From Cyanobacteria bacterium SIG28 (GTDB lineage: Bacteria > Cyanobacteriota > Vampirovibrionia > Gastranaerophilales > Gastranaerophilaceae), in assembly GCA_015152525.1 (NCBI GenBank), contig SUTU01000003.1, forward strand, positions 62,001-126,000: a stretch of 64,000 nucleotides of DNA, in the 5' to 3' direction. Positions 13,807 through 51,374 of this stretch are shown here, in pieces. Within the stretch, counting starts at the first letter, position 1; each line of letters begins with the position of its first letter. A program made the position numbers and the translations under genes. The notes under the pieces were generated by a model that was given only the letters and a program-made list of their open reading frames with translations, ran no database searches and had not been told where the DNA came from.

Positions 13807-14810
13807 GTGTTTTTAACGTAGTCGGAAAATATTTAGATCAGCCTTTGTTAGTGTCTAAAGTTCAGAAAAATGTACCATACGCCTTGGCGGGTGGTGCATT
13901 GGGTTATACATCTCATTTGGTATGTCATTCCAGACCGGAAGAACGCAAAAAAAATGCGGTAAAATATGGGGCTACAATGTTTTTTACGGTAGGCGCCGCT
14001 TTATTAGCACCCAAAATAGCAAATAAAATTTTTAAAGTAAAACCATCCAAGATAAATGAAATTAAGCAAAAAAATACGTTATTAGTTGATGAATTTCTTA
14101 AGAGTAATAAGGTTGAAGAAAATAAAGCGTTAATTCTGGAGAAATCAAAGACAAAAGTTTTGAATTATAAAGAAGTAAAATCCTTATCTAAAGATAGACA
14201 AATAAATAATCCTGAAACAGGTTTGTTGGATAAGTTGATACCAAATCCTGAAAATATAACTTCAAAAGAGATTTTTTCTGAGATAGGTCGGCTGTCTGTT
14301 TTAGGTTTTGTGCCTGTTGTTGGCGGAATTGCCGGCGGTATAGTCGGTGATAGATTGACAGAACAAAATTGGAAGGAAAATATTCCGAATAAAGTGAAGG
14401 AAGGTACTTATCAATATCTTGCAAATATTTTTTTATGCAATGTCGGTGCAGGTGCTGCTTTAGGGTTAATGGAAAAAGCTCATGTACACTCAAAAGCACA
14501 TAGAGCTTTAGGTATGGTTGGCGGTATAGCTGCAACCGGAATTATAGGCGGAAGTGCGATTGCAAATGTTATTGGTAATAAGTTGATTAACCCTATATTC
14601 GGACAAAAATCCGAAAAAGGTGTTTACTCAGAAAGAAGACCTGAAGCATTAGATATTGGACTTCATACAGATGATATCGCAACAGTAGCAGTGATGTCAG
14701 GCTTAAAATGGATTGAACCGGCTTTACCTATTATGTATGCGATTTCAGGTTATCGTGCCGGTATTGGTTATAGGAATGTTAACAAATGTAACAAAACAAA
14801 AGAGTCTTGA
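13803..14810 (+). CDS. Unknown Gly/Ala-rich multi-membrane protein
   Basis: 335 residues with no family I recognise. Hydrophobic Gly/Ala-rich stretches occur near 25-75 (ALAGGALGYTSHLVC, then VGAALLAPKIA), 160-185 (LGFVPVVGGIAGGIVGDRL), 205-225, 235-260 (GGIAATGIIGGSAIANVIG) and 290-320. A His-containing loop (KAHVHSKAHRALG) sits between two of them. It overlaps the DtxR-type regulator by four bases, so the two are made together, suggesting a metal-linked membrane function; that is inference. Its TGA stop lies inside the stem of the terminator that follows. Confidence 0.7.
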   Translation: MSVFNVVGKYLDQPLLVSKVQKNVPYALAGGALGYTSHLVCHSRPEERKKNAVKYGATMFFTVGAALLAPKIANKIFKVKPSKINEIKQKNTLLVDEFLKSNKVEENKALILEKSKTKVLNYKEVKSLSKDRQINNPETGLLDKLIPNPENITSKEIFSEIGRLSVLGFVPVVGGIAGGIVGDRLTEQNWKENIPNKVKEGTYQYLANIFLCNVGAGAALGLMEKAHVHSKAHRALGMVGGIAATGIIGGSAIANVIGNKLINPIFGQKSEKGVYSERRPEALDIGLHTDDIATVAVMSGLKWIEPALPIMYAISGYRAGIGYRNVNKCNKTKES

Positions 14811-14869: not shown

Positions 14870-15223
14870 ATGTTAGCATTTACAGGCTCAAATTTATTAG
14901 GAACTGATAGTAATTCTAATGTATCCAATAATCAGACAAGATTAATTTCAGATAATTCAAGTTTAATTTCAAATTCAACTTCTTTGTTATCATCAGCTTT
15001 ATCACAAGGTGATACATGTAGCTTTTTGTCATCAGAACCAAGCGACGCAACTCTTATGAGTTTTGGGGACGGTTATGAATCAACCGGTGCAGTGGCTTAT
15101 TCGGGTAATGAGTCGACAGGTGCTATTGCTTCATCAAGCTTTAGCTCTGCCTCTGTAGCAGTTGCTTCTGTTTCTTCAGGTTCAAGCTCTTGTTCTTCTT
15201 GTTCTTGCAGTTTTAGTTGTTAA
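14870..15223 (+). CDS. Ser-rich small protein with a Ser/Cys tail
   Basis: 117 residues, with AGGA eight bases before the ATG. About a third is Ser. The sequence has two related segments (YESTGAVAY and NESTGAIAS), then a low-complexity Ser/Ala/Val run, and it ends GSSSCSSCSCSFSC with five Cys in the last eleven residues. There is no signal peptide. I recognise no family. A C-terminal Ser/Cys core after a longer leader is what some modified-peptide precursors look like (azole- or thioether-forming classes), but no cyclodehydratase, lanthionine synthetase or other modification enzyme is adjacent. A metal- or iron-sulphur-binding tail is an alternative. Confidence 0.65.
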   Translation: MLAFTGSNLLGTDSNSNVSNNQTRLISDNSSLISNSTSLLSSALSQGDTCSFLSSEPSDATLMSFGDGYESTGAVAYSGNESTGAIASSSFSSASVAVASVSSGSSSCSSCSCSFSC

Positions 15224-25787: not shown

Positions 25788-25822
25788 AACGAGATAGATT
25801 CCCAACTATCTCGTTTTTTATT
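25788..25822 (+). terminator. Terminator of the 22979-25752 operon
   Basis: Perfect ten-base stem AACGAGATAG (25788-25797) and CTATCTCGTT (25806-25815), then a T-tract. Confidence 0.92.
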
Positions 25823-25846: not shown

Positions 25847-25864
25847 AATGTAAACATTTGTAAC
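25847..25864 (+). promoter_or_regulatory. Perfect HLR1-type direct repeat
   Basis: AATGTAAA CA TTTGTAAC. Its reverse complement, GTTACAAA TG TTTACATT, fits every position of the cyanobacterial HLR1 consensus (G/T)TTACA(T/A)(T/A)NN(G/T)TTACA(T/A)(T/A), known as the site of RpaB. It lies 17 bases upstream of a sigma-28-like promoter for a 42-residue protein. An RpaA-like regulator is encoded at 36205. Confidence 0.55.
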
Positions 25865-25867
25865 AAC

Positions 25868-25897
25868 TTTTCGAAAAACTCTAAAGTTTTTCGAAAA
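25868..25897. promoter_or_regulatory. Perfect 13-bp palindrome over the -35 region
   Basis: Arms TTTTCGAAAAACT (25868-25880) and AGTTTTTCGAAAA (25885-25897) with a four-base loop. The right arm contains most of the TAAAGTTT element at 25882. No T-tract follows, so I read it as an operator or a DNA cruciform-type site, not a terminator. Confidence 0.5.
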
Positions 25898-25908
25898 AAT
25901 ACCGTTAT
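25882..25908 (+). promoter_or_regulatory. Candidate sigma-28-like promoter
   Basis: TAAAGTTT, exactly 11 bases, ACCGTTAT, against the FliA/SigD consensus TAAAGTTT-N11-GCCGATAA. Nearly the same sequence recurs at 49153. The following bases ACAAAATGTAA are also shared. Alternative: AAAGTT with 17 bases to TATACA as a vegetative promoter. Confidence 0.5.
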
Positions 25909-25940
25909 ACAAAATGTAAGACAAAAGTAAGGAGTCTGTT

Positions 25941-26069
25941 ATGTATAATATGTGGCCAGGTTGTTATAGTTTTAGAGATGAACTTAAACTTTTTGCAATG
26001 TGGTTTAAGGAACAAACAGAATCTTTTCTTTTTAAACTTTATGAAGTCGAACGGTTATTGAACGGCTAA
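25941..26069 (+). CDS. Small protein, 42 residues
   Basis: The frame runs ATG to TAA with AAGGAG six bases before the ATG, a promoter-like element about 33 bases upstream and a strong terminator 42 bases downstream, so it is a self-contained transcription unit. The peptide starts MYNMWPGCYSFRDEL, has aromatic residues throughout and forms a plausible amphipathic helix (KLFAMWFKEQTESFLFKLYEV). No signal peptide and no family I recognise. The upstream HLR1-type repeat and palindrome suggest tight control. Confidence 0.65.
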   Translation: MYNMWPGCYSFRDELKLFAMWFKEQTESFLFKLYEVERLLNG

Positions 26070-26110: not shown

Positions 26111-26137
26111 AGCACTCGAAAAAGTGCTTTTTTTTTA
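26111..26137 (+). terminator. Terminator of the 42-residue gene
   Basis: AGCACT/AGTGCT stem (26111-26128) with loop CGAAAA and nine T residues after it. Confidence 0.88.
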
Positions 26138-33787: not shown

Positions 33788-33817
33788 GATGTAAACTTTT
33801 GTAAAGTATGTTATAAT
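33788..33817 (+). promoter_or_regulatory. HLR1-like site joined to an extended -10 promoter
   Basis: GATGTAAA CT TTTGTAAA (33788-33805) is an HLR1-type direct repeat with one mismatch (G at the first position). Six bases later is TGT-TATAAT? read as TGTTATAAT (33809-33817), an extended -10. The repeat covers the -35 position, as a class II activator or a repressor would. It serves the 50-residue gene at 33888. Confidence 0.5.
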
Positions 33818-33887
33818 AAAATAAGCAATTTTAGTCGTTAAAAATACTTTATTAATATATAAGAGAATAAAATATAGGAAGATAGTT

Positions 33888-34040
33888 ATGAACGTCGCAG
33901 TAAGAAAATTAGCTTTGTTAGAAAGACATTTTGCAGAAATGGATGAACGTGCCAGAATGGAAGGTTATTCAAACTCAGGAGTTGACAAGGAACTTCAAAG
34001 AAGAGTTGTTGAATTGATGGACAAAGTGCGTTTGTTATAA
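33888..34040 (+). CDS. Small charged protein, 50 residues
   Basis: ATG to TAA with AGGAAG six bases upstream. The peptide (MNVAVRKLALLERH at the start, ending DKVRLL) is highly charged and predicted helical throughout, with Leu/Val heptad spacing suggesting a helical hairpin or coiled coil. No signal or membrane segment. It has its own promoter with an HLR1-like site and about 70 bases of leader. I recognise no family. The 172 bases after it hold only the promoter of the next gene. Confidence 0.65.
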   Translation: MNVAVRKLALLERHFAEMDERARMEGYSNSGVDKELQRRVVELMDKVRLL

Positions 34041-34997: not shown

Positions 34998-36212
34998 ATG
35001 TTATTAGTAGCAATTATATCTTTTGTATCGGGTTTGATTTTTGCAGGGTTGTGCAGTTATGTATTTTTTAGCAATAAAATCGTTAATATAAAAGAAGAAC
35101 TAATCAAATTGCGTGCTAAATCTGAGACTTCTGAAAGCTTACAAGAAATTATTAAAAGAGATTTTGTGCAAATTGCAAATGAAACTATAAAAACTGAACA
35201 AGAAGATTTAAGAAAACAAAATAGGGAAACTCTAGAGGAAAAAATATTACCTTTAACCAGAGAATTAGGTGAGTTTAAAGACAAGGTTGAAAAATTTAAT
35301 TTATCCGGTGTGGAAAATACAACAAAAATAATTGAACAAATAGGTAATCTTGAGAAGAATAATAAAATTATTGAAAAAGAGGCACGCAATCTTGTAGAAG
35401 CTTTGACGAAAAATCAAAATGTAAAAGGCGCTTATGGCGAAAATCTTTTAGATACAATTCTTCAATCTTGCGGAATGCAAGAAGGTGTACATTATACGAA
35501 ACAATTTGTATCTAAATCGACTAATTTAAAGGATGATGAAATCCATATCGTTCGTCCGGATGTGGTTTTAAATCTCCCTAATAATAAAAGTTTGATAATT
35601 GATTCTAAAGTTACTTTAACAAGTTATTTAGATTATATTGAAGATAATTCGAAAATAAATGAATTTAAGAATGAAGTAAAAAAACGCATAGTTGATTTGA
35701 GTAACAAAAACTATCAAAATGCAGAAGATTTATTGCAGCCAGATTTTGTATTAATGTATATGCCAATTGAATCTTCGGTCAATCTGTTATATGAGGATTC
35801 AGAACTGATAAATCAAGCTTACAAATCAAATATTATAATAGTTGGTACAGCTTCTTTATTAACAACTGTTAGACTTGTAAATCAACTTATGGCGCAACAA
35901 AAACAAGCTGAAAGTGTTCAACAGATTGTTGATGCCGGCACAAATTTATTTGAAACATTTGTCCAGTTTTGCGAGGATTTGATTGACGTACAAAAGAGAA
36001 TGCAAGACGTAGCTTCAAAGCTTACAACTACCATAAACAGATTTCAAAGAGGGAATAAAAATAAACCAAGTTTGTTTTCTCAAGTCAATGCTTTAAAGGA
36101 ATATGGAATTAATACTAATAAAGAAATTCCTTCAAGTTTGTTGGAAGAATTTAATGATGCAGATGCTTCATTGATTAAAAATGATAAAATAGAGGTTTTA
36201 ACAAATGGCTAA
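34998..36212 (+). CDS. rmuC: RmuC family DNA recombination protein
   Basis: 404 residues. N-terminal membrane anchor (3-24), a coiled coil (about 30-140), then the RmuC nuclease-like domain with KGAYGENLLDTILQSCGMQEGVHY and IIDSKVTLTSY, where Asp-Ser-Lys fits a PD-(D/E)xK core. RmuC limits rearrangements at inverted repeats in E. coli. Its last eight bases overlap the response-regulator gene, so the regulator is probably expressed from this unit. Confidence 0.9.
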   Translation: MLLVAIISFVSGLIFAGLCSYVFFSNKIVNIKEELIKLRAKSETSESLQEIIKRDFVQIANETIKTEQEDLRKQNRETLEEKILPLTRELGEFKDKVEKFNLSGVENTTKIIEQIGNLEKNNKIIEKEARNLVEALTKNQNVKGAYGENLLDTILQSCGMQEGVHYTKQFVSKSTNLKDDEIHIVRPDVVLNLPNNKSLIIDSKVTLTSYLDYIEDNSKINEFKNEVKKRIVDLSNKNYQNAEDLLQPDFVLMYMPIESSVNLLYEDSELINQAYKSNIIIVGTASLLTTVRLVNQLMAQQKQAESVQQIVDAGTNLFETFVQFCEDLIDVQKRMQDVASKLTTTINRFQRGNKNKPSLFSQVNALKEYGINTNKEIPSSLLEEFNDADASLIKNDKIEVLTNG

Positions 36213-36900
36213 AATACTTGTAGTTGATGACGATATTGCAATAAATGAACTTATAAAAATTAATCTTGAATTGCAAGGCTATGAAGTTATTCAGGCATAT
36301 AACGGTATTGAAGGGTTTGCTTTGGCAAGACAAGAAATGCCGGCTTTAATAATTTTGGATGTTATGATGCCGGAAGTTGACGGGTTTACGGTTGCTCAAA
36401 GAATACGTCAAGCCGCTGAAATAAGTGAAATTCCTATAATAATGCTAACTGCATTATCTGAATTGAATAATAAGGTTAACGGGTTTAATATTGGTGTAGA
36501 TGATTATTTAACCAAGCCTTTTGAACCGGAAGAATTAGTTGTTAGAGTTAGGGCGCTTTTGAAACGCACAAAACAAATTCCTAAAACATCTGCAGTAAGA
36601 GATTTGTTAACTTTTAAAGAAGTAACGCTTTTGCCGGAAACTTATAGCGTGCAGATTGGCGAAAAAATTCAAAAACTTACTCCTATTGAATTTGATATTT
36701 TTAATTTGCTGTTCCAAAACCATGGTAATATGGTTTCAGCGCAAAGACTGCTAAAAGAAGTTTGGGGATATGATCCGGATGATAGTGTAGAAACTATAAG
36801 GGTTCACATTCGTCATTTGAGGAGCAAAATTGATAAAATTGCTGACGGTAAAAAATATATAGAAACAATTTATGGTGGCGGATATAAATTGAATATTTAG
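36205..36900 (+). CDS. OmpR-family response regulator, RpaA-like
   Basis: 231 residues. Receiver domain 1-120 with VDDD (8-11), phosphoacceptor Asp in LIILDVMMPEVDGFTV, Thr in MLTALS and Lys in YLTKPFEPEE; winged-helix DNA-binding domain about 130-230. The stretch ending EVWGYDPDDSVETIRVHIRHLRSKI, IYGGGY, and KVNGFNIGVDDYLTKPF are close to what I remember of cyanobacterial RpaA, the clock-output regulator, and clearly OmpR/PhoB class. No kinase is adjacent; the nearest is at 30199. HLR1-like repeats at 25847, 33788 and 51357 are candidate targets. Confidence 0.88.
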   Translation: MAKILVVDDDIAINELIKINLELQGYEVIQAYNGIEGFALARQEMPALIILDVMMPEVDGFTVAQRIRQAAEISEIPIIMLTALSELNNKVNGFNIGVDDYLTKPFEPEELVVRVRALLKRTKQIPKTSAVRDLLTFKEVTLLPETYSVQIGEKIQKLTPIEFDIFNLLFQNHGNMVSAQRLLKEVWGYDPDDSVETIRVHIRHLRSKIDKIADGKKYIETIYGGGYKLNI

Positions 36901-49534: not shown

Positions 49535-51253
49535 TTATTTATATAACGGAGCAAGCTTCTTTTCTTGTTGAGGAATTACACCTTCCGTAATTGATTGATA
49601 AACTCTGTAATCTATTTCAGGGAAACAGTTATCAATTGATTCAATTTCAGAAAGTTTTGCTTCATCAATAGAACCGGCTTCAATCATGTCAGCGATTAAA
49701 CTAAATCTGTCAACGTGTTCGTTAAATCTATCTGTAGCGTAATCTTTTGCTTGCCATGTTGTAATCAAGAATGGCCAATCTGAAGATTGAAGTAATAAGT
49801 TTTCACGAGCTAATTGGTTTAATGCTCTAAGTAATAAGCCGTCTTCCGGTTTTTCTGCATAAGCATCAGTGATTTCGCTCATACGTTTTTCACAAGAATG
49901 AATAATTGGCCACATCCATTCTGTTAGGTGGTTCATCCATACATAGAAATGACCGCCTTGACCCCAAGATGACTCAGGAATTTGAATAGCTTCTTTTGGT
50001 GGGTATTTTGTAACGTATTCACCAGCAGTAAGTCTTTCAACTTCCGGAAGATAATCGTGGAATTTTTTAACAACTTGTTTAATAAATTCAACACCTTCAA
50101 ACCACCAGTGTCCGAATAATTCTGTATCAAATGATACCATTACTAAACCTTCTTTGTTTTTAGCCATTTTGTAATCATTTAACAGATGGTAAATCAAAGT
50201 AGTGTAGTGATCAGAGTTTTCATTGATTTTATTCATTGCTAAAACCGGATCGTAAAGCATTTTATCACCCAAATCTGTAGTAGGTGAAGTTATTCTCCAA
50301 TAATGCATGCCAGATTTATCGTCTTTTTTGTGAAATTCTCTGAAACATCCGTCGCCAGGATATCCGTCAGCTGCTGACCAAACTTGATAACCGGCTCTGT
50401 CATTACGTCCCATAACTGCAACTTGTGCATCAGGTAACCAGTAAGCTGAATATGTATCGTATCCTGTTGCAGGTCTTTCCGGTAAAGGAATGTATTCGAT
50501 ATTACCATACATACCAATTACACGTCTGTTACCAATTGAGTTACCACCTTCTATAACATGAGATTCTGTAAAGAAATAATGGATGTCATTATTTTGAAGT
50601 GTAACTTCGATAGCAGGACGCCAATGCTTTTTGCCGTCTTTACCAATATATTCATAACCTTGACGGTAAGCACATTCAGGTAACCAAGTACCCATAGCTT
50701 TTTTACCGAACAATCTTTTTGTAGTATCTTGACCGATTTTAAACTGAGCGTTCAAGTTGCTATCAGTTGCCAACAATGGTGAAAAACCGTGAGTTGCACC
50801 TGAAGTTGTGATTTCAATACAACCAAGATCTTGATATTTTTTGAAATGTTTTATAAGGTCTTTTTCGTATTTGTTTACAAAATCATCTCTTAATCTATTC
50901 CATAAATCATAATAATATTTAGCCAAATATTTTAAGTGTTGAGAATGAGCAACTTTAGGATCCGGATATCTGTCCAAATCTTTTGAAACAGACTTAATTC
51001 TTGAATCAATATATTCAACAAATCCGTTTTGAAGATGCTCGTCGGCTAATTGTTCTGCAAGAATAGGTGTTATACCAACTGTTAATTTTGCTTTAATTCC
51101 TTCTTCGTATAATTCAGAAATTGCATTTAATAGAGGTACATAAGTTTCTGCCATACATTCGTAAAGGTTTTCTTCACCGAATGGCCACATACCTGCTTTT
51201 CTGTAATAAGGCAGGTGACTATGTAACATAAATACGAATTGTCCTACTGACAT
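49535..51253 (-). CDS. GH57 1,4-alpha-glucan branching enzyme (DUF1957 type)
   Basis: 572 residues. GH57 barrel starting FVFMLHSHLPYYRKAGMWPFGEE; nucleophile Glu in GTWLPECAYRQ (about 193) and acid/base Asp in VMVSFDTELFGHWWFEG; SSWGQGGHFYVWMN and a helical C-terminal region. The family forms alpha-1,6 branches in glycogen. No glgA, glgC or glgP is adjacent. About 104 bases upstream of the start is an HLR1-like site (51357), which is suggestive because RpaA-family regulators control glycogen genes in cyanobacteria. Confidence 0.9.
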   Translation of the reverse strand: MSVGQFVFMLHSHLPYYRKAGMWPFGEENLYECMAETYVPLLNAISELYEEGIKAKLTVGITPILAEQLADEHLQNGFVEYIDSRIKSVSKDLDRYPDPKVAHSQHLKYLAKYYYDLWNRLRDDFVNKYEKDLIKHFKKYQDLGCIEITTSGATHGFSPLLATDSNLNAQFKIGQDTTKRLFGKKAMGTWLPECAYRQGYEYIGKDGKKHWRPAIEVTLQNNDIHYFFTESHVIEGGNSIGNRRVIGMYGNIEYIPLPERPATGYDTYSAYWLPDAQVAVMGRNDRAGYQVWSAADGYPGDGCFREFHKKDDKSGMHYWRITSPTTDLGDKMLYDPVLAMNKINENSDHYTTLIYHLLNDYKMAKNKEGLVMVSFDTELFGHWWFEGVEFIKQVVKKFHDYLPEVERLTAGEYVTKYPPKEAIQIPESSWGQGGHFYVWMNHLTEWMWPIIHSCEKRMSEITDAYAEKPEDGLLLRALNQLARENLLLQSSDWPFLITTWQAKDYATDRFNEHVDRFSLIADMIEAGSIDEAKLSEIESIDNCFPEIDYRVYQSITEGVIPQQEKKLAPLYK

Positions 51254-51356: not shown

Positions 51357-51374
51357 GTTACAATTGTTTACTAT
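51357..51374 (+). promoter_or_regulatory. HLR1-like direct repeat upstream of the GH57 gene
   Basis: GTTACAAT TG TTTACTAT matches the HLR1 consensus with one mismatch (T for A in the second core). It lies in the 174-base gap between the GH57 start and the end of the radical SAM gene; otherwise I see nothing in this gap. Confidence 0.45.

Follow-up and report, generated by a model that had tools for sequence, protein, structure and literature searches.

HLR1-type operators at a fixed distance upstream of sigma-28-type promoters in Gastranaerophilaceae, with RpaB as their probable activator

In the window, the whole 64,000-nucleotide stretch of DNA that was analysed, a gene for a 42-residue protein lies between two terminator-like hairpins, preceded by a flagellar-type promoter and, upstream of the promoter, by an 18-base direct repeat. 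The features of this locus are as follows.

25790..25819, plus strand: hairpin and T-run, read from the sequence as the terminator-like end of the preceding gene, which isolates the 42-residue unit
25847..25864, minus strand: HLR1-type operator GTTACAAATGTTTACATT, with 0 mismatches to KTTACAWWNNKTTACAWW
25882..25908, plus strand: sigma-28 (FliA)-type promoter TAAAGTTT-n11-ACCGTTAT, a match to the E. coli consensus
25941..26069, plus strand: open reading frame of the 42-residue protein (MYNMWPGCYSFRDELKLF...), with AAGGAG upstream as a good Shine-Dalgarno sequence
26111..26137, plus strand: hairpin and T-run, read from the sequence as the terminator-like end of the 42-residue transcript

OmpR-family response regulators bind direct repeats one helical turn apart, and the operator consists of two direct half-sites 10 bp apart, oriented opposite to the downstream gene. 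The window reads AATGTAAACATTTGTAAC at 25847-25864, and the reverse complement of these bases agrees at every position with the published HLR1 consensus of two direct repeats, KTTACAWW-N2-KTTACAWW (PMC13421787), as the sequence-only reading had stated. The consensus of E. coli sigma-28 promoters is TAAAGTTT-n11-GCCGATAA (PMC2859248); the -10 element in the window was ACCGTTAT, with GCCG in nearly all relatives. The operator ends at 25864 and TAAAGTTT starts at 25882, so the distance of 17 bases between site and promoter given in that reading was exact. Judged from the promoter, transcription of the 42-residue gene would start near 25914-25916, and counted from this predicted start the operator would occupy positions of about -68 to -51, with its centre near -60. 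TGTAAG or TGTAGA was conserved near the predicted start (25914-25920 in the window, and at the orthologous loci), nearly as well as the promoter. An inverted repeat around the -35 element (TTTTCGAAAAACT/AGTTTTTCGAAAA, approximately 25868-25898) was considered as the operator and rejected, since it was not conserved in relatives.

The 42-residue protein had no match in Pfam or NCBIfam, and the region of its gene had none in Rfam. A search of 34 genomes of the genus detected the gene in 32, the source genome included, and the motif MWPGCYSF was invariant in 25 aligned members of the protein. The orthologous set comprised 59 sequences, namely the window and 58 loci of named genomes, many of which were labelled Candidatus Gastranaerophilales and many of which came from ruminants. 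The sigma-28-type promoter was present in 59/59, and HLR1 within two mismatches was located at exactly 17 bp in 57/59 while the spacer drifted, which confirmed the conservation in relatives on which the sequence-only reading had made its proposal depend. The mean information per column was 1.31 and 1.63 bits for the half-sites and 1.68 bits for the -35 element, compared with 0.41 bits for the spacer. In each half-site the G and C bases were kept, and the A/T bases next to them drifted.

When at most one mismatch was allowed, the window contained five matches versus 1.27 expected, a count that did not occur in any of 100 shuffles. A lax scan of the window (up to three mismatches, with a slightly different pattern) returned 24 matches versus 24.4 expected, and because this is no excess, weak matches are not counted here. 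The 18-base site is real and above chance. Further HLR1-like sites in the window, each with one mismatch, were the following.

14775..14792, minus strand: 78 bp before the open reading frame at 14870, with a ACTTTATATA-type promoter between
33788..33805, minus strand: second HLR1-like site, upstream of a 50-residue open reading frame (33888-34040); not kept as HLR1
51357..51374, plus strand: before the gene of a 1,4-alpha-glucan branching protein homologue (49535-51253, minus strand)

At the 33788 locus, the promoter and the 50-residue open reading frame were conserved in the genus and HLR1 was not. The stretch 33788-34040 has a conserved promoter type (GCAATTTTT...ACTTTATATATATGTAAG), and relatives have a TTAAGAA-containing element in place of HLR1.

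The perfect HLR1 consensus occurred 42 times in the 1.89 Mb genome (GC content, 32%), compared with once for a reversed-pattern control. Intergenic statistics were obtained from a 0.86 Mb sample, the contigs of which were partly picked for perfect matches; the genome-wide counts are independent of this choice. TTACA-N5-TTACA was found 25 times in the intergenic DNA of the sample, versus 0-3 times for each of the other spacings from 0 to 23. The enrichment was intergenic only, the N5 spacing being ordinary in coding DNA (8 in the sample). A matrix scan of the intergenic DNA of the sample gave 56 matches versus 2.35 for column-shuffled matrices; as the matrix was built from the N5 repeat sites, 25 of which are among the 56, the independent excess is approximately 31 versus 2. 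With the same matrix, coding DNA showed no excess (17 matches versus 18.3 for column-shuffled matrices). The genome-wide intergenic enrichment of HLR1, the absence of which would have told against the sequence-only reading, was thus present. The sites were oriented opposite to the downstream gene and mostly lay 63-109 bp before the start codon. Most informative are three features that the sequence-only reading had not noted: a promoter of the sigma-28 type, the constant reverse orientation and the conservation of the 17-bp geometry.

The FliA sigma factor was encoded in the genome (232 bits versus a cut-off of 189.6), and the gene directly after fliA carried a composite promoter of HLR1 and sigma-28 elements. 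Of the 11 sigma-28-like intergenic promoters found in the sample, eight were preceded at 16-17 bp by HLR1 with 0-2 mismatches. HLR1 was also placed at about this distance from the apparent -35 element in two other promoter types, of which one stands before a flagellin gene. A further promoter type observed behind HLR1 was GTGTTAT followed approximately 15 bases later by TGTGGAATTAA (L056 near 12566, L046 near 5615 and L048 near 12482), and one promoter of the GTGTTAT type with HLR1 precedes a flagellin gene.

The composite promoter was detected in 80 of 97 genomes of the family, with control counts that were mostly zero. Members of the genus had 13-21 copies, and genus g31 had up to 19. It also occurred in one sister family (f6), and it was essentially absent from families f2-f5 and f7-f9 and from the phototrophs tested. 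In other genera it was observed before MGxxSQARLL proteins and other small genes, among them those of two conserved small proteins, MEDKKxxDIEDLMxDYGEMTSF and MLKKIxxPTNNIYEGVEFILRGAKKRRSMAMA.

L134, L139-L141, L144-L146, L152-L153, L158-L159 and L163: composite promoter before other conserved small proteins in other genera
L037:14517-15953, L050:17835-18824, L057:9932-11416, L023, L026 and L164:2330-3610, with L147-L151 in other genera: MGxxSQARLL proteins

Predicted targets included two flagellins, MGxxSQARLL proteins, rpoB, a 5'-nucleotidase-like protein and a LuxR-type protein, and many further ones were small proteins or proteins without assigned function. None of the approximately 30 predicted targets read was a photosynthesis gene. 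The sequence-only reading had proposed a repurposed regulon. There is good support for a regulon outside photosynthesis; 'repurposed' assumes one direction out of two, because the operator may be older than its use in photosynthesis. The proteins that start with MGxxSQARLL had no Pfam or NCBIfam match and recurred behind the HLR1 and sigma-28 promoter, one of them adjoining fliA; possibly they are exported. An 'FxG' N-terminal motif was not clearly enriched in the targets (2/25 versus 24/741). The intergenic HLR1 site before rpoB (L038 near 603) lies approximately 180 bp upstream of the gene, a weak position for activation, and may be fortuitous.

In photosynthetic cyanobacteria, RpaB and HLR1 are known to switch oxygenic photosynthesis in response to light and redox state. 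The genome encoded three OmpR-family regulators: RpaA, RpaB and a third one (contig C8, L032). The first of these lies in the window.

36205..36900, plus strand: RpaA response regulator

The description of the 36205 protein as RpaA-like was correct, as its best PDB match was RpaA (9dvt, 264 bits) and it keeps the RpaA recognition stretch ETIRVHIRHLR. It scored 207 bits versus the 330-bit equivalog cut-off for RpaB (NF045944), and with this identity it was dropped as the first-choice binder of HLR1, the role in which it had earlier been put forward. The true RpaB was encoded on another contig (L031) and scored 354 bits with the same model. This protein is approximately 70% identical to phototroph RpaB and has the identical DTRVVDVHISRLR recognition stretch. 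The effector domains of the other two regulators are 28-29% identical to that of phototroph RpaB.

RpaB was near universal in the phylum, with 184 of 194 genomes above the cut-off. Four Gastranaerophilaceae (family f1) genomes in which no RpaB above the cut-off was found (G119, G125, G138 and G238) are nearly complete, and the motif was still enriched in them; the missing RpaB may reflect assembly gaps. Loss of the motif in genomes lacking RpaB was therefore rejected as a test of the binder. A membrane kinase of 620 residues (L171) had NblS (NF045911) as its best family, at 321 bits versus a cut-off of 1000 bits, and lacks the N-terminal part of that family; we refer to it as NblS-like.

Taken from the sequence, the 18-base repeat is in our judgement probably a functional HLR1-type operator that is bound by RpaB and activates a sigma-28-linked regulon of several dozen promoters. 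The genome's RpaB would bind the operator at about -68 to -51 in reverse orientation and would help RNA polymerase with sigma-28 (FliA) to transcribe the 42-residue gene. Flagellins, MGxxSQARLL proteins, many small proteins and a candidate duplicated small RNA would form a regulon under the same arrangement, to which promoters of at least two other types, with HLR1 at a similar distance from their apparent -35 elements, would be added. The input to RpaB would probably come from the NblS-like kinase, and the signal is presumably not photosynthetic electron flow, light or quinone redox. HLR1 sites of phototrophs are activating at about -45 to -66 and repressing between -38 and +23 (PMC13421787). 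Activator dependence is known for few sigma-28 promoters; the cases described are aer and trg of E. coli, which use CRP (PMC2859248). The predicted position of the operator would fit activation, and RpaB as an activator of sigma-28 transcription is favoured. In this gut relative of cyanobacteria, presumably non-photosynthetic, HLR1 occurs in dozens of copies, many of them at an identical distance from a flagellar-type promoter, so that the switch appears to govern other genes than in phototrophs. We give about equal weight to either side of the stronger proposition that RpaB and HLR1 act throughout Gastranaerophilales as a required sigma-28 co-activator, in fixed geometry, for surface or secreted proteins and a small RNA, whether as a version that existed before photosynthesis or after wholesale rewiring.

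A real operator could also be occupied, with or without competition from RpaB, by RpaA (36205) or by the third OmpR-family regulator (L032). The genome has three OmpR-family proteins, and members of this family have such direct-repeat sites in common; in S. elongatus, RpaA and RpaB are reported to compete for the same promoters (PMC13421787); and the motif persists in the four genomes without a detected RpaB. However, the motif is the RpaB consensus at each position, the recognition stretch of the HLR1 binder is found only in RpaB, the effector domains of the other two regulators are divergent, and RpaA retains a recognition stretch of its own, so that we regard another binder as unlikely. RpaB might instead bind as a repressor or mere gate, restraining sigma-28 transcription or mattering only in some conditions, and it does repress many phototroph promoters (PMC13421787). 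The repressing sites known from phototrophs lie closer to the start than the -68 to -51 predicted here, whereas the present sites are always upstream and at a fixed distance from the promoter, and we attach rather little probability to this reading. That no regulator is involved, the site being a chance match or a UP-like element that aids RNA polymerase directly, accords with the low GC content, AT-rich spacers that favour matches and a lax-scan count equal to chance, but is highly improbable because half-site G and C positions are kept while adjacent A/T bases drift, the signal is lost in reversed and shuffled controls and the 10-bp repeat period alone is enriched; chance itself is excluded by the N5-only spacing, the half-site conservation and the excess over the reversed control.

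Activation by RpaB remains the preferred reading, and the system may be compared with HLR1 and RpaB of Synechocystis 6803 and S. elongatus 7942 (PMC13421787). They share the 18-bp consensus, the kind of regulator and its recognition stretch, an upstream position, here predicted to lie near the activating zone, intergenic sites and a small RNA among the likely targets. Unlike in the phototrophs, the targets here are sigma-28-type promoters, flagellins and uncharacterised proteins rather than photosynthesis genes, and the sites have a single fixed reverse orientation, a 17-bp distance and a far higher number per megabase. As at E. coli aer and trg, an activator-type site directly precedes a sigma-28 promoter at a constant position (PMC2859248), but in E. 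coli CRP is centred at -49.5 and two promoters only are concerned, whereas here an OmpR-family-type site with a predicted centre near -60 accompanies most of the sigma-28-like promoters in the sample.

RpaA and RpaB have been reported in Melainabacteria, where they have been known since 2013 (PMC3787301, PMC4040986, PMC5877343), as has NblS (PMC3787301, PMC4040986). Melainabacteria are without photosynthesis genes, a statement that is based here on the same papers and not on the source genome (PMC3787301, PMC4040986, PMC5877343), and another function was suggested for their regulators (PMC3787301). The reports of RpaA, RpaB and NblS (PMC3787301, PMC4040986) concern the same organism group and the same regulators, and deal with genes only, without a binding site, target or promoter architecture. 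A literature search of partial coverage, beyond which such papers could exist, returned no report of HLR1 sites or RpaB targets in Melainabacteria. With a conserved operator, geometry, sigma factor and target list, the role of RpaA, RpaB and NblS retained in non-photosynthetic relatives is now testable. If RpaB activates sigma-28 promoters, one ancient regulator and its operator would have been attached to different physiologies, and the system would offer a rare example of many sigma-28 promoters that depend on an activator.

Two near-identical units of approximately 185 bases with different flanks were observed on the minus strand of contig C16 (L048, G000 C16 near 1774; L050, G000 C16 near 42833). 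Each contains HLR1, a ACTTTATATA-type promoter, a short C-rich segment in which there is no long open reading frame, and a terminator. The unit is probably non-coding and, from this layout, looks like a duplicated small RNA gene, probably under the HLR1 regulator; as such a candidate it recalls PsrR1 of Synechocystis.
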